IMG/VR virus record: IMGVR_UViG_3300042475_002348
Location: 1-48,200 of that record
Reading direction: 5' to 3' (one strand)
DNA length: 48,200 bases
Source of the DNA: a virus
The notes under the pieces were generated by a model that was not told the DNA's origin, searched no databases, and saw nothing but the letters and a program-made list of their open reading frames with translations. Position 1 is the stretch's first letter. The number at the start of each line of letters is the position of its first letter. Shown piece by piece: positions 16,064 to 37,256 of this stretch. The translations under genes and the position numbers were made by a program.

Positions 16064-17659
16064 CTATGATCTATGATTTGACGCCCTAACTGAATATTTG
16101 TCAATATCTATTGGATTTCCCAAGTGTTTAGGCGCATTTGCTTCCTCATAAAGCCGCATGATCTCCCACGATGGAAGACCTTCGGTAGCTTGCTGGGTCA
16201 ATGCGCCATTACGCATATTACCAGTGGGCATCTCCACATCTGCAAATGTCTGAGCAAGTGCGTCAGCTCTATCAGGACTGCGCCCTAATCGACTGCGAAT
16301 TTGATCTTTCTCTTCAAGCCTAAAAGTCCCGCCATGGAACATGAGCTTTGGCATTTGAAGTTCTTCTGCTAGCATCGGGTCGTCAGGTAGCTTGCCACCT
16401 TTACGAACCCAATCACGCATCCTCACCCACATCTCTGTGCGCTTATTAAAGTAGCGTCGGTCTTGTGCCTTAGCATTATAGACTACCGGCGTCACGTCTA
16501 CTGAAGGGAACATGCTCAATGAGTCCACGACGGATCCACCATATCCCCCTGTGTTATCGACAAATATACGCTCCACTCCAAGTTCCTCAACCATCAGAAC
16601 CGCTTTACCTGCAAGTTCAGGCCCCATAACATCGCTGGATACTAGGTCTAACGGATAACCCATCAGACCTTTGCGACGAGCAAAGCACGTTGAGTCCTTA
16701 CCACCTCGAGATACGTCGATTCCTAATCTCATTTGAGACATAGAGACATCCCCTTCTTTCACCACTCGTTCCATCGAATCTCTGATCTCTTGATCGGTAA
16801 GAAGCTGGTTTGAAGATGAATCAGGATATTCAGCGAAGATAGTGATTTTAACCCATGGATGATCGCGTCCATACTTTTGAATCTCTGCACGAGCAAAGTC
16901 AACGGAGACTCTTGGAGCTCGCTTAGGGTCATCAGGGTCTGAGGTCACGCGATAGACTTTCCATCGGTCTCCTTCAAGTCCTTTGTAGGCACGATAGATA
17001 GTCCCTCTAGGTTCTTCAGGGTTAGCAGATACCAAAATTCGTGCGCGCTTCGTATCGGAGTCACCGGAACTCAAGGCAGCATCTGCCGTCGATAGAATAG
17101 AATCAGGAATCATACCTGCTTCGTCGATGGTAAACATGACAAAGTCGGCATGGTGTCCGGCGAGGGCAGAAGCTAATTGGGTGTCGTCTGCTTGTTTTGG
17201 GAAAGATCGGGCATCGATGAAAGAGAAACCTTCCTGCCCTTTCAAACGAATCTTGTCGTAACCTTCGATAAGAGAAGCCGCAAGTAGAGGGGAGTCTAGT
17301 CGCATCTTTAAGAGTTCCGCCCAAAGGTTTGCCATCAAGTGATCTTTCGTGATCGACAGGCAGGCAACCTTCGGTCGATAGCCCGTAATCATGAAGTGAT
17401 GAGTCATTAACGCAAGGAGCCAAGTTTTACCAGGACCCTTCGAGGCAAGCATGGCGACTCGCGGATGTTTCACATACAAGTCCATGACCTCGCGCTGCCA
17501 CTCGTAAGGAGTCACATCAAGCACGTCTCGAGCAAATATACTTGGACGATCCCTCCACAAACGGATTAGATCAGACGGCATGAGGTTACTTGGCTTCTTC
17601 AAAAGCCGCTGAACATTCGCCCCTTCGATTGCCGAAGTTTCTGGAAGAATCAAACTCAT
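16064..17659 (-). CDS. Terminase large subunit (TerL)
   Basis: A 531-residue packaging motor. The ATPase has Walker A SKGPGKT at 73-79, Walker B FTIDE at 176-180 and a coupling motif SAN at 211-213. The nuclease domain shows the acidic residues D315 (GIDVSRGG), D368 (IFVDNTGGYGG) and a late Asp in GRSPDRADAL. This is the Terminase_6/RNase H type. Its start overlaps the TerS stop by four bases. It cuts concatemers and pumps DNA through the portal. It does not end in the I-D-D-L-I tail, unlike its partner TerS. Confidence 0.93.
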   Translation of the reverse strand: MSLILPETSAIEGANVQRLLKKPSNLMPSDLIRLWRDRPSIFARDVLDVTPYEWQREVMDLYVKHPRVAMLASKGPGKTWLLALMTHHFMITGYRPKVACLSITKDHLMANLWAELLKMRLDSPLLAASLIEGYDKIRLKGQEGFSFIDARSFPKQADDTQLASALAGHHADFVMFTIDEAGMIPDSILSTADAALSSGDSDTKRARILVSANPEEPRGTIYRAYKGLEGDRWKVYRVTSDPDDPKRAPRVSVDFARAEIQKYGRDHPWVKITIFAEYPDSSSNQLLTDQEIRDSMERVVKEGDVSMSQMRLGIDVSRGGKDSTCFARRKGLMGYPLDLVSSDVMGPELAGKAVLMVEELGVERIFVDNTGGYGGSVVDSLSMFPSVDVTPVVYNAKAQDRRYFNKRTEMWVRMRDWVRKGGKLPDDPMLAEELQMPKLMFHGGTFRLEEKDQIRSRLGRSPDRADALAQTFADVEMPTGNMRNGALTQQATEGLPSWEIMRLYEEANAPKHLGNPIDIDKYSVRASNHRS

Positions 17660-18237
17660 ATCAAGTCTTCGATGGCAGAATTGTCTAACTCGTTTTCATC
17701 CGCGATGTCGTGAATTTGATCAAGCTCTGTAGGTTCGGGAAGTAGTGCGTTTGATTTTTTAATTACGTTGTACTCAGCTTCGATTTCCTCGACTGACCGA
17801 TTGGACTTAAGTGATTGCTGAACCAAGTCAGTAATCGTCACGTTTCCAGACACATCGAGTTTATCGATGAACATACCGTCAGACTTACCTAGAAGCTCAG
17901 TCGCTTTGAGCCGCGCTTGAATAGGAATATTCTCTTTGGGCTTAGGCACGTTGGTGACAGGATCAAATTCTTCGACAGCAAAGGGATCCTGATTTTTAAC
18001 GATGTCACTCCAAAATGTTTGAAGGTCTTCTCTGTCCATCTTCAATTTTTTAGCTTTATCCATAAAAAAGTCTCGGTGTTTAAGTGCTTCGAGTACGAGC
18101 GGCTCTTTGAGCAGCTTCTCCGCTTGATGTCGAAGGTAAGAGTCTGTTCCGTTATAACCCGCTAAACGCATGGCCTTAACTTCATCTCCCACATACGCTT
18201 CGATAAAAAGTCTGTGTTTAGGGTTTAGTGTCCTCAT
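17656..18237 (-). CDS. Terminase small subunit (TerS)
   Basis: A 193-residue protein. Residues 1-50 show the Terminase_2-type helix-turn-helix (PKHRLFIEAYVGD, KAMRLAGYNG, QAEKLLKEPLVLEAL). It recognises the packaging site and starts cleavage with TerL. It is the first gene of the late block, next to the large intergenic region where the packaging site probably lies. GAAGG is only one base from the ATG and a promoter-like element ends just before it, so the message may be leaderless. The last residues, S-A-I-E-D-L-I, match the tail shared by early DNA-metabolism proteins. Confidence 0.88.
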   Translation of the reverse strand: MRTLNPKHRLFIEAYVGDEVKAMRLAGYNGTDSYLRHQAEKLLKEPLVLEALKHRDFFMDKAKKLKMDREDLQTFWSDIVKNQDPFAVEEFDPVTNVPKPKENIPIQARLKATELLGKSDGMFIDKLDVSGNVTITDLVQQSLKSNRSVEEIEAEYNVIKKSNALLPEPTELDQIHDIADENELDNSAIEDLI

Positions 18238-18244
18238 GCCTTCG

Positions 18245-18273
18245 ATGGTAATGGTCTTTTAAGTCTGTGTCAA
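18245..18273 (-). promoter_or_regulatory. Candidate late-operon promoter before TerS
   Basis: On the minus strand TTGACA (18268-18273) is followed after exactly 17 bases by TACCAT (18245-18250), which matches TATAAT at four of six positions. The predicted start lies at or within a few bases of the TerS ATG at 18237, implying a leaderless or very short-leader message. The consensus -35 and ideal spacer support it; the -10 is modest. Confidence 0.45.
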
Positions 18274-18794
18274 AAAGCAACGGTAGATTCAGCGTCCATG
18301 CTTGTGTCTACCGCTACCCACACACGATTCGAGAGACAGAACCGATACCTCGATTTTGGCAGGGTCTAATGGGATTCGTCGATTGCTGTTGTATGTTATT
18401 TTCTTACCGCTTTAAATCGATTCTAAACGCTTCGACTGGCAAGGGTTGTCTAGGTAGTGGGTTAGGGGGCTGGAGCTGCGAGGGCTTCGATTACAGGGGT
18501 TCCTGGAGATTTGGCAACGTGTGGGTTGTTGGATGCTAGCGTTTGGCGGTAATGCGGCTAGTCGTTTTTGGAGTCTGGTTGTTGTGCGGCAGGTCTAATT
18601 AAACCCTTATGCCTCCAGTTAATCCCTTAACTCAATGCGTTGAAAAATCTCAAAAATTTGTGACGGGGTGGGTATACACCACGCCCACCACGCGAAAAGG
18701 GGGAACGGGGTACTCGTCGCGCACCACACTCTCCCCGATCGCTATGCCCTTGGTGTCACCATGCTCGCCATGCCTACGACTGCCATGGTGTGAT

Positions 18795-18890
18795 GAGACA
18801 CTGAGACACTGAGACACTGAGACACTGAGACACTGAGGCACTGAGACACTGAGACACTGAGACACTGAGACACTGAGACACTGAGACACT
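18795..18890. repeat. Octanucleotide tandem array, 12 copies
   Basis: Twelve head-to-tail copies of GAGACACT span 96 bases. Eleven are perfect and the sixth (18835-18842) is GAGGCACT. The array is entirely in non-coding DNA. The short minus-strand frame across it encodes only a low-complexity S/V/Q/C/L repeat, so coding is unlikely. Copy number may vary by slippage. Confidence 0.95.
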
Positions 18891-19060
18891 AAGAACTTCA
18901 CTCTCCATGAATACCTTGGCGCTTGACGCTCGCAGCGCCTCGCGCTCCCCTCGATTGTCAAGAAAAAGAAGTGGCTTGGAGAGTTTGTGGTTGTGATGCT
19001 TGGCGTTTTGTGCGCCACGATGTTATTGACTTGGTGTGACTTAAAGCATGAGAGTTAAAG

Positions 19061-19138
19061 CGCGCTAAATCGCTGAGTATTTTGTTACGCTACGATCGAA
19101 AATAATGTTAAGACCCATAAAATTCTGAATTTAGCGCG
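19061..19138. repeat. 10-bp perfect inverted repeat
   Basis: CGCGCTAAAT at 19061-19070 is the exact reverse complement of ATTTAGCGCG at 19129-19138, with 58 bases between. The left arm also contains the palindrome AGCGCGCT. It could bind one dimeric regulator at two places or form a loop near the origin. Confidence 0.7.
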
Positions 19139-19147
19139 GTGCCAGCT

Positions 19148-19164
19148 ATGACGCACTGCGTCAT
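19148..19164. promoter_or_regulatory. 17-bp palindrome, operator-like
   Basis: ATGACGCA-C-TGCGTCAT is a perfect palindrome with one central base. The half-site ATGACGCA occurs again at 19447-19454, just upstream of the first direct repeat. This looks like the operator of a small dimeric repressor; the Cro-like protein encoded at 34373-34642 is a candidate. It borders the AT-rich tract. Confidence 0.55.
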
Positions 19165-19460
19165 AATATTTTAAAATTTATAAATAATATAGATATAATC
19201 TTATAAACATATTTCTTTATTCCTTTATGATTGCAGAGACTTAACCCAAAAACATCCCAAAAATCCCTATATAAAATGTTACAAAATCTTGAAAATGCGC
19301 TATGCAGCTCGTACTAGTTATCTAACGAACTTATTGATTTTATTGGATTTATAACGCGCCAAGCATTTTCAAATCGCTGTAACGGCCCAAACCCTCTCGC
19401 AATGCCTCTTTTATCGAGTAATTTTATTTATAGGCAATTTTTACCCATGACGCACCGTAT

Positions 19461-19602
19461 AAACAGTTAAACCATGCTAAAAAAGCAGTCTCACACTTGA
19501 CAACACCACAGCTCTTGAATTATTCTACCATCGAGGTAAGCGCGCACCGATAAGGCGCTTAAGGTTTTAATTAACCATAAAACAGTTAAACCACGCTAAA
19601 AA
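19461..19602. repeat. Pair of 23-bp direct repeats (iteron-like)
   Basis: The copies at 19461-19483 and 19580-19602 (AAACAGTTAAACCA then T or C, then GCTAAAAA) are identical at 22 of 23 positions and 119 bases apart. The first lies just before a TTGACA hexamer and the second lies just before the first early gene. They may be early-promoter operators or replication-initiator sites. Confidence 0.75.
19497..19526 (+). promoter_or_regulatory. Candidate early-operon promoter
   Basis: TTGACA at 19497-19502 is followed after 18 bases by TATTCT at 19521-19526 (four of six matches to TATAAT). Transcription would start about 90 bases before the first early gene. A second possible -10, TAGAAT at 19614-19619, lies five bases before that gene's ATG and has no clear -35. 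I cannot tell which is used. Confidence 0.4.
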
Positions 19603-19623
19603 CAGCGTAAAAGTAGAATAATC

Positions 19624-20040
19624 ATGGCCCGCAACAAACACGCTAAACTATCTACTCGCGCCAAGCGCATACCTAAACTGACCAAGATACCGACTAAGTA
19701 TCTTCAGGAAATCGTCGATAATGGCGAGCGTATGCAAACTGATCAAGCACGTTACGACTATGGTGCAGCCTTCACCATCGAAGACGTTCAGGCCGTACTG
19801 CACCAGCGCCAAGACATCAAACGCGCCAAGCAACTAGCGCGCCACGAGCGCCTAGAATCACTCTCTCACTGCGCCTCATGTGGCATCCTTAAAACGCCTC
19901 AGAACACCGGAATGCAAGGGACCTCGATGCGTCCCACTTGCCGCGCTTGTACTGCTTTAAAACGCAAGCAAGAGCGCCAAGCACGTAAAGGCAACACGAC
20001 GGCAAGTGATACCACGATGGAGAGTGAGCTACCGTTTTAA
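19624..20040 (+). CDS. Zinc-finger protein, first early gene
   Basis: A 138-residue basic protein. C83-x2-C86 and C106-x2-C109 form a four-cysteine zinc site, followed by a Lys/Arg-rich stretch (ALKRKQERQARKG), so nucleic-acid binding is likely. It ends E-S-E-L-P-F, an acidic-hydrophobic tip very like the C-terminus of bacterial SSB. There is no ribosome site before the ATG, and TAGAAT lies five bases upstream, so a leaderless message is possible. The exact role is unknown; being first in the operon suggests an immediate-early regulator or host-takeover protein. Confidence 0.8.
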   Translation: MARNKHAKLSTRAKRIPKLTKIPTKYLQEIVDNGERMQTDQARYDYGAAFTIEDVQAVLHQRQDIKRAKQLARHERLESLSHCASCGILKTPQNTGMQGTSMRPTCRACTALKRKQERQARKGNTTASDTTMESELPF

Positions 20041-20045
20041 TAATC

Positions 20046-20141
20046 GTGGGCGGCAACGCTTACCCTCGAATGACCAAAGAATTTAACAACCTCGACGGCA
20101 ATAATGCCCTAGAGAGAACCCGCAAGGAGATACCGCAATGA
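20046..20141 (+). CDS. Possible 31-aa leader peptide
   Basis: A short frame begins at a GTG five bases after the preceding stop (or at an in-frame ATG at 20070) and its stop overlaps the next ATG as ATGA. No ribosome site is visible. It fits the coupled layout of this operon but may be chance. Confidence 0.25.
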   Translation: MGGNAYPRMTKEFNNLDGNNALERTRKEIPQ

Positions 20142-20983
20142 AACTGCAAAAAGAACTATTTATCAGAGCGCATCAATGGACTAGCTTTAGTCCAGAAAAG
20201 CGAGGCGAGCGCCTTTACTCTGACATGTCACAAATGCTAGCGAGTGACCTCGCAGAACTAGGTGAAAAGTCAGGCAATTATGCTGCTAAATTCGAAGCGC
20301 GCCTAGCTTTATACCTCCACAGAAAGTCACGAACGGCCAGTGCTATGATTGCTGGACCTGCGAAATTCCCTTTTGCTTCAAACGCAAAAAAGATGGATAG
20401 TGAAATGCGCGCATGGGATGACCTCATGAAGTGGCGTGAAAGATACATCAAGGCAGTAAATAGAGAGCGCACCAAGTCCCCCGAAGAAGAAATTGACTCA
20501 ACACTCGCAGAAATTGACCGTATGACTACTGCTCACGCACTATTGAAGCAGTGTAATAAGCTTAAAACGATAGAAGAACGTAAAGCATTCTTGGTTGAGA
20601 ATCATCAGTCATTTAAAGGAATTGTTAGTGCTCGCACTGATATTACCGAAGAACTAAAAACGCAGCACTGGACGCTAACATACCTCAATCGACGCATAAA
20701 AGAGCGTCAAAGCAAGCTAGAAACGATGAGAGCGCGCATTGAGCGCAAAGCGACCTTCGAACCTATCCAATTCGAAGGTGGAAGCATAACCATTGAAGAA
20801 GATCGCGTAATGATTAAGCACGACGCAAAGCCAAGCCGTGAAGTAATCGACGCTATTAAGGCGCGTGGTTTTAGATGGTCCCCAAACTTTACAGCGTGGG
20901 TAAGAAAGCACACTGCCCAAGCTATCTACGACGCTCAAAACATCATCAAGGAAACGACTAAAAACAATGAGGTGACAGCATGA
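20138..20983 (+). CDS. Polyvalent-associated-domain protein, function unknown
   Basis: A 281-residue protein, helical up to about residue 215 and rich in K, E and R. The C-terminal domain has the pattern REVIDAIKARGFRWSPNFTAWVRK followed by TAQAI. I know this RGFRWSP-x-AW element from large proteins of phages and conjugative elements, where it sits next to DNA-modification or antirestriction domains. No catalytic motif is seen. A protective role for incoming DNA is only a guess. AAGGAG precedes the ATG. Confidence 0.75.
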   Translation: MKLQKELFIRAHQWTSFSPEKRGERLYSDMSQMLASDLAELGEKSGNYAAKFEARLALYLHRKSRTASAMIAGPAKFPFASNAKKMDSEMRAWDDLMKWRERYIKAVNRERTKSPEEEIDSTLAEIDRMTTAHALLKQCNKLKTIEERKAFLVENHQSFKGIVSARTDITEELKTQHWTLTYLNRRIKERQSKLETMRARIERKATFEPIQFEGGSITIEEDRVMIKHDAKPSREVIDAIKARGFRWSPNFTAWVRKHTAQAIYDAQNIIKETTKNNEVTA

Positions 20984-21246
20984 AACCTATGTTTGAGCTG
21001 GATAGCTACGAAAATTGTCACAGCGACTTTAACTTTGAAAAGCTTAAGAGACTGCTAAAAGAAGATAAATTGCATCCAATGTTTGAGGGAAAGCACATCA
21101 CGCCTCATGGCTGCTGCGATGCTGTCGAGTTTTTCGGCAATTTCATCCATCATTCTTTTGTCTTTCGATTTTCCACCAGGAAAAAATCGTTGATTTCAGA
21201 ACTAACAAATTTAATCGAAGCAAATTTAAAAAAGGACATGCCATGA
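20980..21246 (+). CDS. Hypothetical early protein, 88 aa
   Basis: Not recognised. The start overlaps the preceding stop (ATGA). Small soluble protein with several His, Phe and Cys residues (HGCCDAVEFFGNFIHHSFVF) and a charged C-terminal helix. Confidence 0.6.
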   Translation: MKPMFELDSYENCHSDFNFEKLKRLLKEDKLHPMFEGKHITPHGCCDAVEFFGNFIHHSFVFRFSTRKKSLISELTNLIEANLKKDMP

Positions 21247-21596
21247 AAACAATTGAACTAAACGATACAAAACAAGCTTGCTATGACTTGCGAGTAAACT
21301 ACAAAGGAACTCGCAAACGTGCACGAAAGATCGAGAATCATTCAATTAAGTTAATCGAAGGCGTGGAGTTGTCCGAGATCGTGGGAGCGGATGGAGAGCT
21401 TAAACATGAAGCGCACGTCGAACTTATCCGCTTAGCGACTAAGGCAGTCAAAGAGCACGCAAAGCTATGCAAAGACATCACTGTCCGCTGCGATTATGTG
21501 ACTCGCTCAAAAGAAGGTGGATTCATTAGCACAGAATTTGAGCCATTCGGGGACAATCATATTCGCTTTACCTTTCCTTTTCAGTGGGAGGTGTAA
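21243..21596 (+). CDS. Hypothetical early protein, 117 aa
   Basis: Not recognised. It is coupled to the previous gene by an ATGA overlap. Alternating basic and hydrophobic residues and a final aromatic strand (IRFTFPFQWEV) suggest a small alpha/beta protein. No motif gives a function. Confidence 0.65.
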   Translation: MKTIELNDTKQACYDLRVNYKGTRKRARKIENHSIKLIEGVELSEIVGADGELKHEAHVELIRLATKAVKEHAKLCKDITVRCDYVTRSKEGGFISTEFEPFGDNHIRFTFPFQWEV

Positions 21597-21598
21597 CC

Positions 21599-23433: not shown

Positions 23434-23441
23434 GAGTTTTT

Positions 23442-26048: not shown

Positions 26049-26249
26049 ATGTTTATCTATTCCATTGGAGACATAATTACTGGAACAATATTAGCTTTAT
26101 TACTAAGCATCCTCATCGGTACTTGGTTTTTTAAAACTATCAAGGCGGCGGTTTGTAGCCACAAAAGAACCTACGAAAACGGACTGAGCCTTGACGAGAT
26201 TTGTCGAGATTGCGGCAAGAATCTTGGCTTTGTTGGGCGCGACAAATGA
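26049..26249 (+). CDS. Small membrane protein with Cys pair, 66 aa
   Basis: I choose the ATG at 26049, which has GGAGAGG upstream, over an in-frame start eight codons earlier. Residues 5-32 are one membrane segment (ITGTILALLLSILIGTWFF). A cytoplasmic-type tail has C-S-H and C-R-D-C residues that could hold a metal. Similar single-pass Cys-tail proteins are common in phages; role unknown. Its stop overlaps the next ATG. Confidence 0.6.
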   Translation: MFIYSIGDIITGTILALLLSILIGTWFFKTIKAAVCSHKRTYENGLSLDEICRDCGKNLGFVGRDK

Positions 26250-26494
26250 AAGACTCACAAAGATTCGCCGAAGAGAAAGCAGAAGAGTACGCCAGCAAAC
26301 GAGCGAGTAAAGAGACCGACTACACTCGATACGCAGAACTCTACAACGCGCACTATGCAGGCGTGATCTACTGGACTGCTGAGCTGATCCATTTAAGAGA
26401 AGTTTTAAAGGTTCAAGGCAAAGAGATCAAGAAAGAAATTAAACTCGCCGATACGGTACCTGCGACGGTCGAAACAATCGAGGACTTGATATGA
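26246..26494 (+). CDS. 82-aa helical protein with I-E-D-L-I tail
   Basis: The ATG at 26246 overlaps the preceding stop (ATGA). The body is a charged helical hairpin (AEEKAEEYASKRASKETD and ELIHLREVLKVQGKE). The last residues, V-E-T-I-E-D-L-I, match the shared tail. The next gene overlaps by four bases and ends with the same peptide. Possible adaptor or cofactor of the replication module. Confidence 0.7.
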   Translation: MKDSQRFAEEKAEEYASKRASKETDYTRYAELYNAHYAGVIYWTAELIHLREVLKVQGKEIKKEIKLADTVPATVETIEDLI

Positions 26495-27165
26495 TCTTTA
26501 AAAAGCTTAGCGATGTTCACATGATGAGCGAGAAAGCGGCCCAACGTCAGGAGATGCTCAGAACCTTAGAAGCCTCCGATTTCTATCAGGCAAAAATGGT
26601 TTTGAAAAACATTGCACTCGATGAGTCCACCACGTACGACATGCAGAAGATAATTAAAAGGCATTTGAACCTGGTAGTAAAAAGAAAGAAGAAATCCGTT
26701 GATGTATATGGCGTACCTATAACCTTGGACAGACTACTTGCTTTATCTTGCACTTCACTGTGGACTTTCAGAGCAAGCATATTTTCTAAGGCGTTTGCTT
26801 TTAGCGGTGGGTTTTCCAGCGAAGGGCTTCTTCTTCAAATTGCCGCAGACAACATGGCACTAAGAGATGTGACGAAAGAGAGCAACCTTAAAACGTATCG
26901 AAGACACCTTAGTCTTCTGCTTCGATGCGGTGGGTTTAAGAATGGCGTGGAGCGAAAGAAAATGTGTAGCTCAGACATCAGCACGACCGGAAGGGTTTGG
27001 TATCTGCCTAAAAACATAATGCACTCTACTGCCGATGAGCTGATAGATAGCGCCGAGTTCATCATGTCCCAAGCGGAAACACTTGACCGAACGGAATCAG
27101 GAAAGGAACTTAGAGAGATCGAAAAAACCGTAGAACAAAACACAGTCATTGAGGACTTGATATAA
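26491..27165 (+). CDS. 224-aa replication-module protein, possible winged helix
   Basis: No known family recognised. Residues about 145-185 (TYRRHLSLLLRCGGFKNG ... GRVWYLPKN) look like a winged-helix DNA-binding unit with a beta wing. A flexible acidic stretch leads to the terminal V-I-E-D-L-I. It is directly before and coupled to the SNF2 helicase gene (TAATG). A loader or DNA-binding partner of the helicase is plausible but unproven. Confidence 0.7.
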   Translation: MIFKKLSDVHMMSEKAAQRQEMLRTLEASDFYQAKMVLKNIALDESTTYDMQKIIKRHLNLVVKRKKKSVDVYGVPITLDRLLALSCTSLWTFRASIFSKAFAFSGGFSSEGLLLQIAADNMALRDVTKESNLKTYRRHLSLLLRCGGFKNGVERKKMCSSDISTTGRVWYLPKNIMHSTADELIDSAEFIMSQAETLDRTESGKELREIEKTVEQNTVIEDLI

Positions 27166-28529
27166 TGTACACACCAAGAGCGCACCAAATCGAAGGAATG
27201 GATTTCCATCGTGCTAGTCAATTTATGGGCAGCCTTATATGGCACGGCATGGGACTAGGTAAGTCGAGTCTTGCACTCTGGCTTGCTGAAGAACACATAG
27301 GCCGTCTAAAAAAGCTAGGCGTAAAGACCCCAAAGTTTGTTGTCTTCTGTCCTAAATCAGCACTACCTACCTGGAGAGCTGAGTGCCGCAAGTTCACTCC
27401 GAGTCTTTATCGTGACATGATTCTGTTTCCCTACTCGCAGATGAACAAAGCGATCCGCATGGTTGACTACATCGACGCTCGCATGATTGCCTTCGACGAG
27501 TCTCACTATCTTAAATCACCAAGTACCAATAGAGTCAAAGGACTCTCCGAGTTCCTAAGACGCATGGGTAAGATGTCAGGAAAGTTTGAGCATGGGCGCA
27601 TGTTGTTTCTCACAGGTACTCCAATGCCTAATAACGCTGCAGAAATCTATTCTACATGGGCAATAGCGACTGCCCCAAACGTAACAACAGCAGCGGACAG
27701 GTTACTCGACGAGGTTAAGTTTGATCTGTGGCGCAACACATACACGAGAGTCGAAGTAAAGACCTGGAAGATTGGAAAGAACAAAAGTCCTGAGAATCAA
27801 AGACGTGGAGTCGCTAAGACCTTCCAAGGAGTGGATAACTCCGAACAGTTCGCACAATTAATAGGCCCTATCACTCACTTCAAACGAGTCGAAGACTGTA
27901 TTGATCTGCCAGAGAAACAAGAAGTCATGGTGGATCTTGGATTACCGGACGATAAACTCCTGGCAAACGCTAGCCTTGAGCAGCCAGAAGCGTACATGGC
28001 GCTATTAGAAAGACTCAGCCGCGCTAAGACTCCGCACATGATCGAGTGGGTCAAGGACTTTTTGGAAGGAACTCAAGAACAATTAGTCGTCTTTGCCACG
28101 CACGTATTCGCCTTGAGAGCACTTCAGGATGCCTTCCCTAATCACGTCAAGCTCATCATCGGAGAGCTGTCTACCGGCGAAAGAACACGCCATTTGACTG
28201 AGTTTCAGAACTCGAAGTTCAGGGTGCTAGCACTAAGCTATCAGTGTGGATCTGAATCATTGAACCTACAGAACGCTAGCAAAGCGTTATACCTAGGCTA
28301 CCCATGGACAGATGGAAAGTTGAAGCAAGCGATGGCACGTATCTATCGCCAAGGACAGAAGAACGCTACGATGCACTATTTCTTAACGAGCGGTGAGTGC
28401 GATCAGCGCATCCTTCGATTGGTTCGCACGAAAGAAGAAGCCACTAACACTGTAGAAAATCTACTGCTTACCCAAGAAATAAAGCAAACTTTGCCTAAAG
28501 AAACTTTTAGTATTGACGATCTGATTTAA
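27165..28529 (+). CDS. SNF2-family helicase/translocase
   Basis: A 454-residue, single-unit superfamily 2 ATPase. Walker A GMGLGKS is at 28-34, DESH (motif II) at 111-114, TGTPMPN (motif III) near 150 and RIYRQGQ (motif VI) at 392-398. Phage SNF2 proteins of this size accompany DUF2800, DUF2815 and VapE-type primases and are thought to remodel DNA during replication or recombination. The end, F-S-I-D-D-L-I, carries the shared tail after about 45 residues of linker. Confidence 0.9.
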   Translation: MYTPRAHQIEGMDFHRASQFMGSLIWHGMGLGKSSLALWLAEEHIGRLKKLGVKTPKFVVFCPKSALPTWRAECRKFTPSLYRDMILFPYSQMNKAIRMVDYIDARMIAFDESHYLKSPSTNRVKGLSEFLRRMGKMSGKFEHGRMLFLTGTPMPNNAAEIYSTWAIATAPNVTTAADRLLDEVKFDLWRNTYTRVEVKTWKIGKNKSPENQRRGVAKTFQGVDNSEQFAQLIGPITHFKRVEDCIDLPEKQEVMVDLGLPDDKLLANASLEQPEAYMALLERLSRAKTPHMIEWVKDFLEGTQEQLVVFATHVFALRALQDAFPNHVKLIIGELSTGERTRHLTEFQNSKFRVLALSYQCGSESLNLQNASKALYLGYPWTDGKLKQAMARIYRQGQKNATMHYFLTSGECDQRILRLVRTKEEATNTVENLLLTQEIKQTLPKETFSIDDLI

Positions 28530-28559: not shown

Positions 28560-29837
28560 ATGACAATTAAAATTCATCCACAGCTTACAGGCTTTGTACG
28601 CCCGTCGGATCACAGTAAGTTTTCACCTTCTGCTGCAGACCGATGGATGGCTTGTCCAGCGAGCATCCAACTCTCCGAAGGTATTCCTGAAGAGAAGTCC
28701 GAATACTCGGAGCAAGGAACTCTTGCCCACTCAGTATGCGAAGCGATGTTCGACCACGAACATTTCATGATCGACATGCCGGTCGAGCTTCAAGCTCAAC
28801 TAATGGCATGGGAATCGACGCATCCTGGAGATGTCCCTGAGATGTATGACTGTGCTCAGACCTACGTGGACTGTGTGTCTTCATGGCTTAATAACAAGGA
28901 AGCTATTGGCGATGTGCTTTGGTATGGCCTTGAGAAAGGTGTGCCAGTATTCCCTGAGAAAGGATGCTTCGGTACTGGTGACTGTGTGATCGTCGGAACT
29001 AAGGCCGCGGTGATCATCGATTATAAACATGGCAGAGGAAAGAACGTACAGGCAGATGCTTTGCAACTCAGAGTCTATGCCGCAGGAGTCCTTCGCCATT
29101 TAGACAACCTCCCTGAAGGTTACGGAGTATATTCTGTGGTAGTACAACCTCGAACCGACCCAACACCAAAGACACATTTCTATCCTGCAGCACAGATACA
29201 TCAGTTCCTTGGAGAAATCTGGAGCGCCATTATCGCAACAGAGCAGCCCAACCTTGAACCAAAAGACGGAGGTCATTGCTTCTGGTGTCCTGCTAAAAGA
29301 ACTAAAGACCTGATGAAGAAGTGCCCGACTCAGATGATCTTGCCGGTTAATGCGGCCAAAGAGAACTTTGAGAAATACCTCTCCGATATGAACGCTCCAG
29401 TTGAGAAACTCGGAGTCGCTAATCCTAAGCGTGATGAGGCGATGATGAAGATCATCTCTCTCATGCCACTCCTCGAATCTATTCGTGATTCGGCAGTTGA
29501 AGAGTTTCAATACCGCTTAGAGCAAGGCGAAGCTATCGCAGGACTGCAACTTGTAGAGAAGATCGGCAATAGAACTTTTGGTAAAGCACCAGATGATCAG
29601 ATCGCTGAGGTCTTGAAGCAGAAATATCCAAAGCTTGATCCTTGGAGAATTATTCCGGAGAAGAAAACAATTCGTACCATTGGCGACATTGAGAAAGAAG
29701 TCGGCAAGGGTGCACTGGATACTGTGACTCAAAGAACTATTAAAAAAGAAGTGAAAATATTAGACGCTAAGGCGTTAGAAGTAATGGGCAATCTCGCGCA
29801 TTATGGAAACTTGTCAACATCGAAGGAGATCGTATGA
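28560..29837 (+). CDS. DUF2800 PD-(D/E)XK nuclease with Fe-S cysteines
   Basis: A 425-residue Cas4/RecB-like nuclease. The opening FSPSAADRWMACPAS is typical. The active site shows D141 (GTGDC), D154 and K156 (IIDYKHGRG). C32 with C240, C243 and C255 gives the four-cysteine pattern that holds a 4Fe-4S cluster in Cas4 and AddB. It probably resects DNA ends for recombination-dependent replication. GAGGGA precedes the ATG. It ends S-K-E-I-V and lacks the shared tail. Confidence 0.88.
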   Translation: MTIKIHPQLTGFVRPSDHSKFSPSAADRWMACPASIQLSEGIPEEKSEYSEQGTLAHSVCEAMFDHEHFMIDMPVELQAQLMAWESTHPGDVPEMYDCAQTYVDCVSSWLNNKEAIGDVLWYGLEKGVPVFPEKGCFGTGDCVIVGTKAAVIIDYKHGRGKNVQADALQLRVYAAGVLRHLDNLPEGYGVYSVVVQPRTDPTPKTHFYPAAQIHQFLGEIWSAIIATEQPNLEPKDGGHCFWCPAKRTKDLMKKCPTQMILPVNAAKENFEKYLSDMNAPVEKLGVANPKRDEAMMKIISLMPLLESIRDSAVEEFQYRLEQGEAIAGLQLVEKIGNRTFGKAPDDQIAEVLKQKYPKLDPWRIIPEKKTIRTIGDIEKEVGKGALDTVTQRTIKKEVKILDAKALEVMGNLAHYGNLSTSKEIV

Positions 29838-30508
29838 CACCTGATCAAGAGAAAGAATTTTTCCGCAAGCATGTGTTTACCCTTAAAGGTCGCATCTTGC
29901 ATCCGGCATTGCTTAAGCCTATGCCTAACAAAGAAGGAACTCGCGTTAACTTTAACGTGCAGGCAATCTTTAAGCCTGAAGACAACGCACAGGAAATTGC
30001 ACGTCTTGGTGCATTCATTAAGCAAGTTTACGACACGTTCTATCCTGGCTTCCCGATTCAGAACTGGGTTAATCCCTTGAAGAAGTATGAGACGTACATT
30101 CGTCAAGACGGTCGCCCAAACGCAGAGTATTTGAAAGGTCATTACTGGGTTAACGCTGCTTCAGGTAAAGACGTTCCTCCTCAAGTCTATAAGCAGGGCC
30201 CTATGGGAATGGTGCTTTTGACTGAAGCTGACCAAGCTGAAGTTTACTCAGGACGCAACGCGGTCGTGAACATTTCTTTCTACCGTATTAAGTCGCAGAA
30301 GCATGGCCTATCGACGAACATCAATGGCGTATTGCTTCTTGAAGGTGGCGAGAAAGTTCAAGGTGCAGGAAGCTTTGACCCGAACAGAGCGTTTGGATCT
30401 TTCATGCAAGACATGGGCATGAACGTGCCGGTCACGAACACTCCAAGCAATGATCCGTTTGGCAATTCAGGTAACAACTCGGGCAGCAATGGCCCTTCAT
30501 TTATTTAA
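29834..30508 (+). CDS. DUF2815 single-strand DNA-binding protein
   Basis: A 224-residue protein of the DUF2815 family, linked to the T7 gp2.5/OB-fold group. Family traits include VFTLKGRILHPALLKP near the start and the KGHYWVNAASG and VNISFYRI strands. After residue 190 a G/N/S/P-rich flexible linker ends G-P-S-F-I. This is the layout of SSB proteins, in which the tip recruits partners. The ATG overlaps the nuclease stop (ATGA). Confidence 0.85.
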   Translation: MTPDQEKEFFRKHVFTLKGRILHPALLKPMPNKEGTRVNFNVQAIFKPEDNAQEIARLGAFIKQVYDTFYPGFPIQNWVNPLKKYETYIRQDGRPNAEYLKGHYWVNAASGKDVPPQVYKQGPMGMVLLTEADQAEVYSGRNAVVNISFYRIKSQKHGLSTNINGVLLLEGGEKVQGAGSFDPNRAFGSFMQDMGMNVPVTNTPSNDPFGNSGNNSGSNGPSFI

Positions 30509-30519
30509 GGAGATATCAG

Positions 30520-30996
30520 ATGTATAAGTTTTCAGCAGAATTTGAAACGATTAAAGAACTCGCCGACTTTGTGAATGGCATTCAAGGTGGCGTTCCTGCC
30601 GCTGCGACTGTAGAGCAAGCAGCTCCTACTACAAAAGCTAAGGCAAAGAAAGAGAAGGAAGCTCCAGCTCCTTTGACTGCCGCTGCTCCTGAAGCACCAT
30701 TCGTGCCAAAGGCAGAAGTCAAAGCTTCTGAAGTTGTAGTTGAGAAGACTCCAGTAGTCGCTCAGCCTGCAGCACAAGATAGCGCGATCATGGTTGAAGA
30801 AATCAAAGCAATCGTAGCAGGATTGAAAGCTAAAGGTACTAACGACGATCAGCTCAAAGCAGTCTTCTCTGGTATCTTTGCTCAGCTAGGATTGCCTCAA
30901 GGTGTCCCTGTCAGCAAGCTTGAGAACGATCAGATCACACGTTTCTTAATGGCGCTCAAGGATCACGCAGCTCCAAAAGAGAATAGCTTTATTTAA
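30520..30996 (+). CDS. 158-aa protein with Pro/Ala linker and S-F-I tail
   Basis: Short N-terminal domain (residues 1-25), a long A/P/K/E-rich linker (26-90), then a helical C-terminal domain (IMVEEIKAIVAGLKAKG, TRFLMALKDH) and the end E-N-S-F-I. GGAGAT lies before the ATG. It is between SSB and a secreted protease. Two small domains on a tether, ending like the SSB, suggest a scaffold or accessory factor; no family recognised. Confidence 0.75.
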   Translation: MYKFSAEFETIKELADFVNGIQGGVPAAATVEQAAPTTKAKAKKEKEAPAPLTAAAPEAPFVPKAEVKASEVVVEKTPVVAQPAAQDSAIMVEEIKAIVAGLKAKGTNDDQLKAVFSGIFAQLGLPQGVPVSKLENDQITRFLMALKDHAAPKENSFI

Positions 30997-31041
30997 TAGG
31001 TGCGCGGGGTGAAAGCCCCGCTCTCTTTTCACGGAGGATTT

Positions 31042-31692: not shown

Positions 31693-31700
31693 GAGATACC

Positions 31701-32354
31701 ATGCAGATCGAAGAAGGAAAGTTTTACAGAAGTCATGATGGTCAAGTGTTGCGCTGTCTTCGCGTGACTCCGAAGATCACATCGTTTGCGCATCAAGAGA
31801 CTGCTGCTTTAGAGGGCCCAACAGAATCTATAAGCACATTCATCACCGAAGCTAAGCTTGAAGAGATCACAGAGACAGAATACGCTCGAGGCGTTCTTGC
31901 TTGGGGGGCGGCTAAAGGCGACAGTGAGAATTTCAAGGCACAATTTGAAGAGATTAAAGATATTGCCAAGCCTATCATCCACGCTAAGTTCCAAGAGTAC
32001 GGAGGCTACAAAGACTTTGATCTTAAGACTGAAGAGATGACAGAGAAAGAACTTGCCGAAGCTACTCGCAAGACAGAAGACAATGCCGCTCCGATTGCTA
32101 TTGTTTTCAAAGCAGAAACTTTGATCGAACCACTAACTACTATTCGCTCTATGATCGAAGGTCTTCAAGCATTCCAAGAAAAGCATTGGTGTGTTGAAGT
32201 TCGTAACGCCATCATCGATCTTGAGAACGCTCATGGCTGGTTGACTGAACGTCAGGCGAGAAAGAAAGATCAGGCAATCGCAGGACAGGAAAACCCTGAC
32301 AATCAAGTGCTGCTTGATAACGTATTACCTATCACACCGGAAAGCGCATACTAA
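31701..32354 (+). CDS. Hypothetical replication-module protein, 217 aa
   Basis: Not recognised. The ATG at 31701 has AGGAG upstream and is preferred over one seven codons earlier. The N-terminus (KFYRSHDGQVLRCLRVT) looks like a small beta barrel. The rest is helical and acidic. It abuts the polymerase gene with no gap. Confidence 0.7.
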   Translation: MQIEEGKFYRSHDGQVLRCLRVTPKITSFAHQETAALEGPTESISTFITEAKLEEITETEYARGVLAWGAAKGDSENFKAQFEEIKDIAKPIIHAKFQEYGGYKDFDLKTEEMTEKELAEATRKTEDNAAPIAIVFKAETLIEPLTTIRSMIEGLQAFQEKHWCVEVRNAIIDLENAHGWLTERQARKKDQAIAGQENPDNQVLLDNVLPITPESAY

Positions 32355-34364
32355 ATGAACCTGATCGACACGTTTATAGATTTCGAAACGCGTAGCCGTG
32401 CTGACATAAAGAAAGTTGGCACGGTGAACTATGCGACTCACCCGAGCACTGAAGCTACGTTACTCACGTATGCTTTCGGTCGCTCAGGTTCTATTAAAGT
32501 TTGGAAGCGTGGCGACCCGATACCTGCTGACCTAATCGATGTTATGGTCAATCCGCACAAGTATAGAATGATTGCCCATAACATCTTTTTCGATTACTTA
32601 ATCTGGACGATGGTGTTCTCTAAGCTATTGCCTGCTCATCATGTGTTCAAGCGCCCTGAGATTCAGAACCTTGAAGACAACATGGCACTGACATCTTACT
32701 TCCGTGTAGGTGCAGGACTCGACGCTGCGGCAGCAATGCTCCGACTGCCTTACTCAAAAGATAAAGAAGGTCGGCGCTTGATGCTTAAGCAGTGCGCACC
32801 AAACGCTAAGACAGGACAATTCGTAGAGCTCACGCCTGAAGAGATGACTTCGTTTATTAATTACGGTGTGACCGATACTCGCCTACTTCGTGATATTTAC
32901 TACATGATACCTAAGCTTCCAGCTAACGAGCGATGGGCATGGGAGTGGACGTTTAGACGTAACTGTCGCGGCGTACGTGTAGACATGGAATTGGTGAGAG
33001 AGATGGATGCCATCATCCAAGAAACAATGCCTGCCCTAACGGCAGAGTTTGAGCATTGGACTTGTGGGCAGGCACAGATAAACTCTCCGGTTAAATGCCT
33101 GCCATGGTTCAGACAGTTCTGGCCATGGATTGATAACATGCAGGCAGATACTATCCGAGACATGATGGCAGAAGATCGCCAAGTTCCTCCTCATGCTAGA
33201 CGTGCACTGGAGTTGAAAGAGCTGGCAGGATCCACCTCGATTGCTAAGGTGCAAGTCGCTATTAGAGAAGCTTATAATGGAAAGATATTCGGACTCTACG
33301 CCTACGGACATGCGCAAACTCGACGTTGGGCAGGACGTGGCATTCAGATTCAAAACTTCCCCCGACCTGATCAGAAACCTTATGACCCTATCATCAAAGA
33401 TTTAAACGTCATCGATCTTGCAACCGAGTTCAGACGCAGAAAGAACCTAGGACTTAAAGACCCTATCGGCTTTGTAAAGAATCACCTTCGACGTATATGG
33501 CTTGCCGATCCAGGTAAAGAATTTATTTGCGGTGACTTCTCTAAGATCGAACCGACTGTGCTGTACTGGCTGGTCGGCAAGGGCCCAATACCGCCGAAGT
33601 GGTATGAAGAGATGGCCGCTGCGATCTTTAGTAAACCTGTATCGGAAATATCAAAGGACAGCGAAGAACGCCAGTTAGGTAAAGCTGCTGCGCTAGGAGC
33701 AGGGTACGGCATGGGGCCACCAAAATTTAAGGCAGACGTTTACAAAAAAGAAGCCATGGTCATCACTGAAGAGATGGCAAAAATATCAATAGATACTTAC
33801 CGCCGAGTGAACCACGAGATCGTGGCACTATGGGGTGATCTTGAAAGCGCATTTAAGAAAGCTATCATGGGACACTCAAGCATGTTGTGTAATGGAAAGA
33901 TTCACGTCACTCCGATGCAACACCCATGGAAAGGTGTGCAGATTAGACTGCCTTCAGGCAATCACCTGTACTACCACTACGCTCACCTTAAAGAAGAACC
34001 AGTGCTCTACAAAGAAGGTGAGTTCGCCGGTCAGCCTATCGTTCGTAACGGTCGTCCAGTTACCCGCGAGGTTATGATCTATATGGACAACGAGCAAGGA
34101 AGATTCGAGGCTAAGAAAGTTTACGGTGGATTACTCACCGAGCACGTCACGTCCTGCACTGCCAGAGACATTATGGTTCCTGCCATGTGGAGATTAGAAC
34201 AAGCAGGATTCGACGTTACCGGAACTATCCACGATGAACTATGGGCACAGGCAGAGCCTGGACGCAAGGAAGAGTTTGAAAGAATCATGTGTATTAACCC
34301 GTCTTGGTGCAAAGATATGCAGATCAGTGCTGGACTTGAATGCGGTGTTCGCTATCTTAAGTAA
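32355..34364 (+). CDS. Family A DNA polymerase with 3'-5' exonuclease
   Basis: A 669-residue replicative polymerase. Exonuclease residues are D9 and E11 (IDFETRS), D80 (AHNIFFD) and Y170/D174. Polymerase motif A has D394 (CGDFSKIEP), motif B is RQLGKAAALGAGYG (439-452) and motif C is HDE at 626-628. This is the phage type that travels with DUF2800, DUF2815 and VapE-like primases. It starts right after the upstream stop with no clear ribosome site, so coupling is likely. It ends V-R-Y-L-K without the shared tail. Confidence 0.92.
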   Translation: MNLIDTFIDFETRSRADIKKVGTVNYATHPSTEATLLTYAFGRSGSIKVWKRGDPIPADLIDVMVNPHKYRMIAHNIFFDYLIWTMVFSKLLPAHHVFKRPEIQNLEDNMALTSYFRVGAGLDAAAAMLRLPYSKDKEGRRLMLKQCAPNAKTGQFVELTPEEMTSFINYGVTDTRLLRDIYYMIPKLPANERWAWEWTFRRNCRGVRVDMELVREMDAIIQETMPALTAEFEHWTCGQAQINSPVKCLPWFRQFWPWIDNMQADTIRDMMAEDRQVPPHARRALELKELAGSTSIAKVQVAIREAYNGKIFGLYAYGHAQTRRWAGRGIQIQNFPRPDQKPYDPIIKDLNVIDLATEFRRRKNLGLKDPIGFVKNHLRRIWLADPGKEFICGDFSKIEPTVLYWLVGKGPIPPKWYEEMAAAIFSKPVSEISKDSEERQLGKAAALGAGYGMGPPKFKADVYKKEAMVITEEMAKISIDTYRRVNHEIVALWGDLESAFKKAIMGHSSMLCNGKIHVTPMQHPWKGVQIRLPSGNHLYYHYAHLKEEPVLYKEGEFAGQPIVRNGRPVTREVMIYMDNEQGRFEAKKVYGGLLTEHVTSCTARDIMVPAMWRLEQAGFDVTGTIHDELWAQAEPGRKEEFERIMCINPSWCKDMQISAGLECGVRYLK

Positions 34365-34372
34365 GGAGAATT

Positions 34373-34642
34373 ATGGAAAAGCATAAAGATAAATTTTATT
34401 TTGCGGTGGGTAAGCTCTTGACCCAAACAATGAAGGAACGCAAACTAACTATTCCGGCGATAAAGAGGGCCTCCGGTCTTCAGTACACGACGATTAAAAG
34501 AATGATGAACGGCGATGGATTCATGTTCCATCAAATCGTCGCTCTTGCTGACGCACTGAAACTGGAAGTTTCCACTATCGCAGAATACGCATTGAACTAT
34601 GAGGGATCACATGACACGCAAGAAATCGACGACCTCATCTGA
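34373..34642 (+). CDS. Cro/CI-like helix-turn-helix regulator
   Basis: An 89-residue protein with an XRE-type fold: helices 2-3 are LTIPAIKRASGLQYTTIKRM and a fifth helix covers VSTIAEYAL. It probably represses or tunes an operator in the divergent control region. AAGGAG precedes the ATG. It ends T-Q-E-I-D-D-L-I, the shared tail, which is rare for a Cro-like protein. The tail codons overlap the nuclease gene start out of frame. Confidence 0.82.
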   Translation: MEKHKDKFYFAVGKLLTQTMKERKLTIPAIKRASGLQYTTIKRMMNGDGFMFHQIVALADALKLEVSTIAEYALNYEGSHDTQEIDDLI

Positions 34643-35162
34643 GGAGAAGGCAGAGAAGCCTAAGAAAAAGATTAATGGAGCGAAGAAAGGTAAAACATTC
34701 GAAAGAGAGGTAGCAAATCTAATAGGGCATATCTTTCCTGAAGCAGCCAGACACCTCGAGTATCAAGCATCCAGAGTAATCGGAGCTGACCTCGATGGTA
34801 CTGATCGCTTCTTATTCCAGCTTAAGAACCATCAGAACTATTGTTCGATTGGAACGATTAGAGAAGTTCATAAACAAAACGAAACAGATATTCCTGTTCT
34901 TGTTACTAAAGGTAACAGGATGGAGACCATGGCCGTACTCCCATTTCGGGATTTTGTCACCCTCCTTGAGGTGGTGTACGGCCTCTCTTCTAGATGGGAA
35001 GTCGCTGCGACTCAGCAGCATATCAAGACATCCCTATCTGGGAAAAAGGTGATTGAAGTGGAATACCTGGAGCCTGACGAAGTCGTGTTTGTAGAGGAGA
35101 GCGGAAACAAAAAGCTTCTCCATCTAGTGGAACAAACTGCCTGCATCGACGATTTAATTTAA
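34611..35162 (+). CDS. PD-(D/E)XK nuclease, resolvase-like
   Basis: A 183-residue protein from the ATG at 34611, which has GAGGG five bases upstream; an earlier in-frame ATG lies at 34599. A Lys-rich N-terminus leads into KKGKTFEREVANLIG, then GADLDGTDRFLFQLKN, the acid-acid-QxK order of Hjc-like and related nucleases (E31 or E33, D60/D62, Q70, K72). Resolving recombination or replication junctions is likely. It ends A-C-I-D-D-L-I. Confidence 0.8.
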   Translation: MTRKKSTTSSEEKAEKPKKKINGAKKGKTFEREVANLIGHIFPEAARHLEYQASRVIGADLDGTDRFLFQLKNHQNYCSIGTIREVHKQNETDIPVLVTKGNRMETMAVLPFRDFVTLLEVVYGLSSRWEVAATQQHIKTSLSGKKVIEVEYLEPDEVVFVEESGNKKLLHLVEQTACIDDLI

Positions 35163-35174
35163 CTTTAACCACGG

Positions 35175-37256
35175 GTGACACCAGTGAAAGACTTACAAGC
35201 AATTCGTTTTATTAGAGGGACAAAAGTTTCTCACGACTATTCAGGAACAGACGTAAACACCTTCTCCTACAGAGAACTTGTGTCTCGAAACATCGAGTGT
35301 ATCGGTATTCCTGCCAGGCAGAACGGACTTCTGATCATCGACATTGATGTTGCAGGGCCATCACATCAGCAAGACGGACGCGAATGGTGGAAAGCTTTTC
35401 TCAAAGAGAAGAACCTTCTAACCCCTACCTACACAGTGCGCTCCCCGTCTGGAGGCTACCATTTCTATTACCGACTTCCCGAATGGATTAACCCTGACAC
35501 CTTCACGCCTCCAAGTCAGCTCGCTCCTGGAGTCGATATAAAATATAACGGATGGGTAGGTGCTCCTCCTTCACCAGGGTATGACATCGAGTACGGAACC
35601 CTCGCCGATATTATAGATGCACCACGCTCTCTTCTTGATTACATCGCCGATCTCATTAACGATCGTCCGATGAAGACTTTCGATGGTCTGACTATTCCAG
35701 AGATGCACCGACCATTTACTCCTAAGCAGATCGAAGACCTGAGAGGAAAGCTTGAGTGGATGAAACAAAACGCAACGCTGAGTTACTCTGAGTGGCGGGA
35801 CGGTTTGTTCGCTATGAAAGCAGGAATCGAAGATTATGATGTGCTTAATGAGTTCATCGATCTTTGGACTATGGGCAAATCTTATCAGCCAGGCGATGAG
35901 CACAAAGCTCGAGACATCGTAGAGAAAGCAAGTGCCCAAGGTGGCGTAGGCCCTGGAACTTTACTGAACCTATGTCAGCAGCACATGCAAATGCACAAGA
36001 CTGTCTCAGCCGAAACACCTTTCACTGTTCAAGAAATTCTTGATCGCTCCGGTGTTCAGCTAACCTTTGATAAGTCAGGCATGGTGCAGGTCTATCCATC
36101 AGAGAACAATGCGGCTGATCTAATCGCAGCTATTTTTGATGTGAAGGATCTTTACCACGATGTTAGACAAGACCTCTACATATTCAAAGGTCATCCCTCT
36201 TCGGACGTTGATATTGTGAATAAGCTTATACCTATGATCCAGAGCCCTCACGAAGGTCTAGGATTGCAGAAGCTTAAGAAAGGTTTGATTGCCCATGGAC
36301 TTGATATCCTCATGTCTAGAAGGCAAGTAGACCCTCATAAGCAGTATCTCCTAGGGCTAACATGGGATGGCGTACCTCGAGTGGAAAACTTCTTTACTCG
36401 GTACTGCGGTGTCACAGATAAAGAATATGTGCGCATCGTGTCTAAGAACTTTTGGGTGAGCCTTGCTGCTCGTGGCGTCAGACCTGGTAGTAAGGTGGAC
36501 AGCATGGTGGTGCTTGAAGGGCAAGAAGGAATTAATAAATCGTCGTTGATTGAAGCTATTGCAGGTGAATACGCCTACGCGCCGGATAGCCGTGATGGAT
36601 TGGAGAACCTGGACATACTTCGACAGATGCACCAATCGGTGATTACCGAGCTTCCTGAGCTTATGGGAATACTGCATCAGCCTGCCGAAAAGGTTAAGGC
36701 GTTTCTCTCTAACCGCTGTGATACTATTCGTGCCTTGTTTGCCAAGAAAGCCATGAAGAATATGAGGGGGTTCATATTTGTAGGGACGACGAACTCTTCT
36801 CGTTATCTTTCTAAAGCTGCGGGACTGCGGCGTTTCTGGCCCATAAGAATACCTAACTCGAAGCGTGTGGATCTTGCTGCGGTTAAGAGCGACCGCGATC
36901 AGTTGTATGCTGAGGCCGTACATTTGTTTAAGAACGGGGTGGAGTGGTGGCATGTACCGAGCGACATGCTTGAGGCAGAGACTGGATTGCGTGTGACTCA
37001 GGAGCCTTTGGTGGGCCCGATAAAAGATATGGCGCACAGATTTGGCGCAGGCTGGACGATCTCTGAGATTTACACTGAGCTCTCTAGTAGAGGCTTTATG
37101 AAGTCAGGCCTTGATAATCAAAGTGTGGAAAGGATTGAGCATTCGCTTCGATTGGCAGGCTGCATAGAAATCGACGACCCCCGAGGTATTGTATGGAAAA
37201 AGCCCTTCGATACTTCGATGTTTGAGTCTAGTCAAGGGATTGAGAGTTTTATCTGA
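35175..37256 (+). CDS. Primase-helicase (Prim-Pol plus VapE/D5-type ATPase)
   Basis: A 693-residue fusion. The primase-polymerase domain has D56 and D58 (IIDID) and H96 (GGYHFYY). A PriCT-2-like segment (185-270) follows. The VapE ATPase has Walker A GQEGINKS at 449-456, with Asn where Gly is usual, and the RRFWPI signature near 555. It should prime and unwind DNA at the fork. GTG at 35175 is the longest start; GTG at 35184 is also possible. The end is G-I-E-S-F-I, like the SSB end. Confidence 0.9.
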   Translation: MTPVKDLQAIRFIRGTKVSHDYSGTDVNTFSYRELVSRNIECIGIPARQNGLLIIDIDVAGPSHQQDGREWWKAFLKEKNLLTPTYTVRSPSGGYHFYYRLPEWINPDTFTPPSQLAPGVDIKYNGWVGAPPSPGYDIEYGTLADIIDAPRSLLDYIADLINDRPMKTFDGLTIPEMHRPFTPKQIEDLRGKLEWMKQNATLSYSEWRDGLFAMKAGIEDYDVLNEFIDLWTMGKSYQPGDEHKARDIVEKASAQGGVGPGTLLNLCQQHMQMHKTVSAETPFTVQEILDRSGVQLTFDKSGMVQVYPSENNAADLIAAIFDVKDLYHDVRQDLYIFKGHPSSDVDIVNKLIPMIQSPHEGLGLQKLKKGLIAHGLDILMSRRQVDPHKQYLLGLTWDGVPRVENFFTRYCGVTDKEYVRIVSKNFWVSLAARGVRPGSKVDSMVVLEGQEGINKSSLIEAIAGEYAYAPDSRDGLENLDILRQMHQSVITELPELMGILHQPAEKVKAFLSNRCDTIRALFAKKAMKNMRGFIFVGTTNSSRYLSKAAGLRRFWPIRIPNSKRVDLAAVKSDRDQLYAEAVHLFKNGVEWWHVPSDMLEAETGLRVTQEPLVGPIKDMAHRFGAGWTISEIYTELSSRGFMKSGLDNQSVERIEHSLRLAGCIEIDDPRGIVWKKPFDTSMFESSQGIESFI

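Follow-up and report, generated by a model that had tools for sequence, protein, structure and literature searches.

Why would a row of unrelated phage proteins end in the same few residues? The question is raised by a 48,200-nucleotide stretch of viral DNA (hereafter the window; positions 1 to 48,200 of IMG/VR record IMGVR_UViG_3300042475_002348), in which the terminase small subunit TerS, a SNF2-type helicase, a nuclease, a Cro-like protein and two small proteins end in I-(D/E)-D-L-I, and a primase-helicase ends in IESFI. This C-terminal peptide is conserved, exactly terminal, selected as a peptide and co-varies between unrelated proteins of one genome, and we consider it very likely to be a shared docking tail. 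On balance, we favour the reading that this phage-specific tail docks its carriers on one receptor in the replisome, encoded by the phage itself and most likely the DNA polymerase. A sequence-only reading of the window had drawn attention to these C-termini; all of them are found in the window's translations, and the end coordinates it gave are the stop-codon ends of the genes. The tails, and the polymerase as the best candidate for their receptor, are located as follows.

17659..17673, minus strand: tail IEDLI of TerS (gene 17656-18237; TerS by PHROG phrog_51)
26477..26491, plus strand: tail IEDLI of an 82-amino-acid (aa) protein (gene 26246-26494; 97 aa if started at an upstream TTG)
27148..27162, plus strand: tail IEDLI of a 224-aa protein (gene 26491-27165)
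28512..28526, plus strand: tail IDDLI of the SNF2-type helicase (gene 27165-28529)
34625..34639, plus strand: tail IDDLI of the Cro/C1-type helix-turn-helix (HTH) protein (gene 34373-34642)
35145..35159, plus strand: tail IDDLI of the PD-(D/E)XK / RusA-like nuclease (gene about 34599-35162)
37239..37253, plus strand: tail IESFI of the primase-helicase (gene 35175-37256, GTG start)
30491..30505, plus strand: tail GPSFI of the gp2.5/Enc34-type single-stranded DNA-binding protein (SSB; gene 29834-30508), second tail class
30979..30993, plus strand: tail ENSFI of a 158-aa protein (gene 30520-30996), second tail class
32355..34364, plus strand: family-A DNA polymerase, untailed (ends RYLK), putative receptor

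Pfam and PHROGs place the primase-helicase with the Prim-Pol/VapE type, the SSB (DUF2815) with the Enc34/gp2.5 type and the DUF2800 protein of the window with PD-(D/E)XK exonucleases; the 82-aa and 224-aa proteins match no family in either collection.

Relatives were collected by a TerL search, which gave 40 contigs, and by a primase search, which added the near-complete G021 and the distant G022. The resulting set of 14 genomes comprises the window and 13 records with the replication module, 12 of them near-complete and one (G011) a 25.6 kb fragment. Genes were called in these genomes, so that starts may be misplaced while stops are reliable. Contigs L002 and L137 are near-identical to the window and G002/G003 to G007, and are not independent of them. 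The tail stands at the end of all 55 copies of four core families: the SNF2 helicase (14/14), the nuclease (14/14), the primase (14/14) and TerS (13/13; the G008 contig stops just beyond TerL). It is also present on ten of ten Cro-like proteins and six of six proteins at the position of the 224-aa gene, whose same-position counterparts in five relatives end in the local tail type. The family consensus is [LI]-x-[DST]-[LF]-[IVL]-COOH, with hydrophobic residues at -5, -2 and -1, mostly D, S, E or G at -4, D, S or T at -3 and no preference at -6; a broader form also admits Y at -2. The pattern [ILMVFYWA]xx[LFYWIM][IVLM] closes 49 of 51 core-family copies in 13 genomes (without G022) as opposed to 43 of 575 other genes, and these 43 include several additional carriers (Fisher p about 1e-44 for enrichment on the four core families). 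The two core copies outside the strict pattern, SYSFI in G011 and EGKYL in G010, match their own genome's type.

In alignments, the conserved protein bodies stop short of the tail, and the linker between them differs in length and sequence between relatives. The tail is thus appended to non-homologous DNA-metabolism proteins, as had been proposed; absence from homologues, or a tail that is just each family's own conserved end, had been named as grounds for dropping the idea, and neither was found. Additional partial contigs show concordant tails; G025, a distant relative by both its terminase and its primase, has none. The polymerase and TerL lack the tail, also as first read: TerL ends NHRS in the window, and the polymerase ends RYLK in 13 of the 14 genomes and RYGK in G022, and is never tailed. 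A contrast case is the small protein adjoining TerL (window 15595-16056), which has a conserved end specific to its family, G-T-F in almost every genome.

The tail changes from genome to genome, and it does so in concert on unrelated proteins. In G010 the tails are EGKYL (TerS), LARYL (SNF2), LSTYL (nuclease), MSQYL (primase) and IGKYL (224-aa position), the one exception to this x-Y-L type being the Cro-like protein (LKHFI). G016 has WGDFV, IDEWV, VNDFI, YEAYV and FGDFI; YSSLI ends both TerS and SNF2 in G011; and in the distant G022, L-G-L ends TerS, SNF2 and the nuclease, and GMNL the primase. We quantified this by shuffling genome labels within families and scoring the similarity of same-genome tails between unrelated proteins. 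The observed similarity was 13.04, compared with 6.95 +- 0.51 under shuffling (z 11.8), and z was 9.3 without G022 and 7.6 without G022 and G010. Ten control families gave z -0.9 in the same test. Upstream of the tail the signal falls to z 2.4 to 3.1 at residues -10 to -6 and to z 0.0 at -15 to -11. Six families co-vary individually: SNF2 (z 6.3), TerS (5.8), the primase (5.2), the nuclease (4.8), the Cro-like protein (3.3) and the 224-aa position (3.2). No co-variation with the main tail was seen for the SSB, the 158-aa and 103-aa proteins, DUF2800, TerL and most virion proteins; the polymerase (z 2.4) and one virion family (z 2.0) gave small positive values at strongly negative similarity, which we take as noise.

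Selection acts on the peptide, as suggested by the penultimate Leu codons, which differ among the window's tails as had been noted. Where two same-genome tails have an identical residue, the codon is identical as well in 37.2% of cases; 37.1% is expected from codon usage (0.372 versus 0.371). The tails are therefore not copied as DNA.

Not every similar C-terminus belongs to this set. The sequence-only reading had grouped three proteins by a terminal S-F-I. Co-variation (z 5.2) assigns the primase IESFI to the I-(D/E)-D-L-I class, while the SFI ends of the SSB and the 158-aa protein do not co-vary with that class (z 0.5 and 1.4) and form a separate one, in which the last two residues of the 158-aa tail go with the SSB tail (z 3.3). 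Two further proteins counted in at first have to be left out. The 103-aa protein (SEDLV; window 10587-10898) has the end of its own conserved virion-region family (z 1.6, p 0.06), usually x-L-V and independent of the shared tail, and the zinc-finger protein (window 19624-20040) ends in SELPF, which resembles the bacterial SSB tip. Ends of the zinc-finger family elsewhere are LSEIPF (G017), VAPF (G005) and QAPF (G007), and an 85-aa open reading frame (ORF) in G009 (L070:16656-16913:-) ends in ADDIPF, the bacterial SSB tip; these ends possibly mimic the tip of the host SSB. The DUF2800 end SKEIV was considered as a shared tail and rejected, as the ends of its homologues differ. The gp2.5-type SSBs of the window (29834-30508) and its relatives have long, neutral P/Q/N/G-rich C-terminal linkers and, unlike Enc34 and T7, no acidic tail.

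Shared tips also occur in cultured phages with gp2.5-type SSBs. In Enc34, E-V ends the primase, ORF3, DUF2800, the SSB and TerS; in SS2019XI, D-L ends the primase, one ORF, DUF2800 and the SSB; in FoX4, E/D-L ends the primase, DUF2800, the SSB, a methyltransferase and TerS; in BPP-1, DLV/DLI ends DUF2800, the SSB and a methyltransferase; in P26218, D-D-L-L is found on the SSB and two further proteins; and T7 has GDF on gp2.5 and TDF on gp4. Three to six proteins share the tip in the example phages, including TerS, DUF2800 and methyltransferases, and primase and SSB tips are alike in Enc34, SS2019XI, FoX4 and RcSimone. Across 19 phages, several of them interrelated, the SSB tip is shared by 23 genes compared with 7.0 +- 2.9 expected (p 5e-5); the gene caller missed the BPP-1 SSB, whose end was taken from the annotation. 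No polymerase tail was seen in any cultured phage examined. The nearest cultured phages by TerL (the Xanthomonas CP2 group) have no shared tail among the proteins checked. Tail type tracks the lineage of the phage and not its host: two phages of P. aeruginosa, AAT-1 and SS2019XI, differ in their tails (SFLD and DDDL, respectively), while AAT-1, AXL_1, V45iii and Mallos have tails alike although their hosts belong to four genera.

Two observations from these phages concern further tip-bearing proteins. Gp15 of Rhodoferax phage P26218 (L169:10603-11181), annotated as terminase small subunit, matches AAA / 5-hydroxymethyldeoxyuridine DNA kinase models and carries the shared tail VDDLL. A family downstream of the helicase (phrog_17205/38698/34102) has the SSB tip in five phages and is a candidate for an unrecognised replisome member; its genes are:

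L173:15452, family member
L174:17698, family member
L175:16496, family member
L176:23663, family member
L181:23498, family member

Several known systems resemble this arrangement. In T7, the acidic tails of gp4 bind the gp5 polymerase at basic patches (PMC12593628). As in T7, unrelated replication proteins bear a similar hydrophobic/acidic tip next to an untailed family-A polymerase and a gp2.5-type SSB. However, two carriers are found in T7, whereas here TerS, SNF2, the nuclease, the HTH protein and small proteins are also tailed; acidic residues form at most a short run; and the SSB tail is different, neutral and does not co-vary with the primase tail, while primase and SSB tips are alike in T7. 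In T4, the gp45 clamp is the docking site of gp43, gp55 and gp33, whose hydrophobic/acidic C-termini are highly similar and can be interchanged (PMC2988020); a variable linker precedes the gp55 epitope, and in T4-related phages this C-terminal likeness is not generally conserved. The near-identical C-termini on unrelated proteins, which in T4 use one phage-encoded receptor, and the variable linker are common to both, but the polymerase is tailed in T4 and never here, and all genomes of the window's family keep the tail. No sliding clamp or clamp loader was found among the replication proteins scanned, a subset of the ORFs. The bacterial SSB tip (DDDIPF), which the sequence-only reading had aptly invoked, likewise serves for docking and is a short acidic/hydrophobic peptide at the very C-terminus. 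In bacteria a single SSB tip serves many partners, whereas here many proteins bear the tip, and an acidic run followed by [IL]-P-F is approached only by the zinc-finger family and the G009 ORF. Also similar are Enc34-like phages (Casjensviridae) and other gp2.5-SSB phages, with genome-specific tails (DEV, DL, EL, DLV, DDLL) on unrelated replication proteins, TerS being tailed in Enc34 and FoX4 too; there, however, the SSB and DUF2800 take part, which they do not in the window's family. T4 and T7 provide known cases of a C-terminal tail by which several replication proteins address one receptor. As far as our literature search shows, the breadth of carriers (TerS, SNF2, nuclease, HTH protein, small proteins without known family), the family-wide invariance, the genome-specific switches made in concert and the repeated occurrence among many gp2.5-SSB phages are new; the search, which covered few subscription papers, found no earlier description of tip sharing.

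How could such a tail work? We propose a short linear docking motif that makes up the last ~5 residues of the chain and follows a linker that varies and is probably flexible. The motif would plug into one receptor at least seven unrelated proteins (TerS, SNF2, nuclease, primase-helicase, HTH protein and two small proteins). Docked in this manner, factors for replication, resolution and packaging would gather at the replicating phage DNA. Because tails of unrelated proteins co-vary within a genome, they should have one common partner, and we infer one receptor per phage. The idea of a single hub is supported; the host hub that had been allowed for is disfavoured. The receptor is probably phage-encoded, as the tail type follows the phage lineage and differs within one host species. 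A PDZ-like pocket, also suggested at first, found no support, with no PDZ family among the window proteins scanned. The receptor should be common to all these phages, which leaves the never-tailed polymerase and the SSB core. The T7 precedent leads us to prefer the polymerase, though as a tentative choice resting on analogy, with the SSB core as next candidate.

Several points weigh against this explanation. The genomes are related to each other, which brings the effective sample size below 14, yet the control families have the same kinship and gave z -0.9. In an AlphaFold2 model of a polymerase+nuclease chain, the tail reached a predicted local distance difference test (pLDDT) score of about 55, compared with 30-40 in the preceding linker; such read-through chains, in which the stop between in-frame neighbour genes is modelled as a residue, are weak tests only. 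Mirror-tree values are fairly high for the SSB, TerL, p158, polymerase and portal alike and do not single out the polymerase. That the SSB tail is independent of the main class, in contrast to Enc34-type phages, does not sit easily with a simple polymerase hub of the T7 kind, and we know of no precedent for TerS and an HTH protein docking on a polymerase.

The alternative that survives best, though we think it unlikely, is that the receptor is the oligonucleotide-binding (OB)-fold core of the phage SSB, and that partner tails mimic the SSB's own C-terminal tail, which rests on the OB domain in SSBs of the gp2.5 type. In crystals, the C-termini of Enc34 SSB, other DUF2815 structures and gp2.5 lie in the groove of a neighbouring molecule (PMC5686142), and in many phages the tip is shared between the SSB and other proteins. 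The SSB also has the top partial mirror-tree value, 0.50 over 14 genomes, but this drops to 0.21 without G010 and G022. In a read-through model of the SSB and 158-aa proteins, which tests the second tail class alone, the 158-aa tail is not confidently docked (pLDDT 38). A fold search with this model matched the SSB part to DUF2815/gp2.5 structures and gave no significant match for the 158-aa part. Moreover, the cleft would be hidden while the SSB binds single-stranded DNA.

More doubtful still is a host receptor such as the beta sliding clamp. Clamp ligands end in L-F or L-x-L type motifs and clamp clients typically have a common tail; the pentapeptide of most genomes and the L-G-L of G022 recall these two motif forms. 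However, Gln is neither conserved at -5 or -6 nor preferred anywhere from -8 to -5. Tail types change from one related genome to another and differ among phages that infect one host species, while the type stays constant in related phages from four host genera. A primase search of genome contigs for the host gave no real relatives.

It is very improbable that the tail acts as a C-terminal degradation signal, by which early proteins would be removed at a set time through ClpXP- or Tsp-like reading of nonpolar ends. The terminal residues are nonpolar and the carriers appear to be mainly early/replication proteins, but a fixed host-protease preference would not select lineage-specific K-Y-L, E-W-V and L-G-L, and the abundant SSB bears the same tip in cultured phages. 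Finally, a DNA-level origin through ribosome-binding or stop/start overlap constraints, or through recombination copying gene ends, is negligible: an ATGA overlap follows some tails (TerS/TerL and 82-aa/224-aa in the window), but codon sharing is at expectation and primase genes mostly have no nearby same-strand gene downstream, and we rejected both ribosome-binding sites and gene copying on these grounds.

Some features of the genomes stand apart from the tail. The noncoding gap at 18238-19623, between the divergent TerS and early operons of the window, contains 12.6 copies of TGAGACAC at 18794-18894 and several near-repeats AAACAGTTAAACCAxGCTAAAAA, and is a possible origin or control region. 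The TerL of G017 (L084:3500-6073:-) is about 330 aa longer than the others, with Hom_end, LAGLIDADG and weak Hint matches, and the insertion is probably an intein. The G009 polymerase (L070:5324-8059:-) has an insertion of about 250 aa with no Pfam match within it.

The tail shows clearly and quantifiably how a short linear motif of a virus undergoes concerted evolution, and it suggests that packaging, through TerS, is physically linked to replication. The chances seem evenly balanced that phages with a family-A polymerase and a gp2.5-type SSB run a private, clamp-independent C-terminal docking code, in which tag and receptor co-evolve per lineage. Such a code would recruit helicases, primase, nucleases, methyltransferases, regulators and the packaging initiator TerS to the replisome. 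The occurrence of shared tips in cultured phages makes the docking idea directly testable. A genome's own tag also provides a sequence-only finder of replisome members, as any small ORF bearing it is a candidate, and a private tag would help explain why replication modules stay together during phage recombination.

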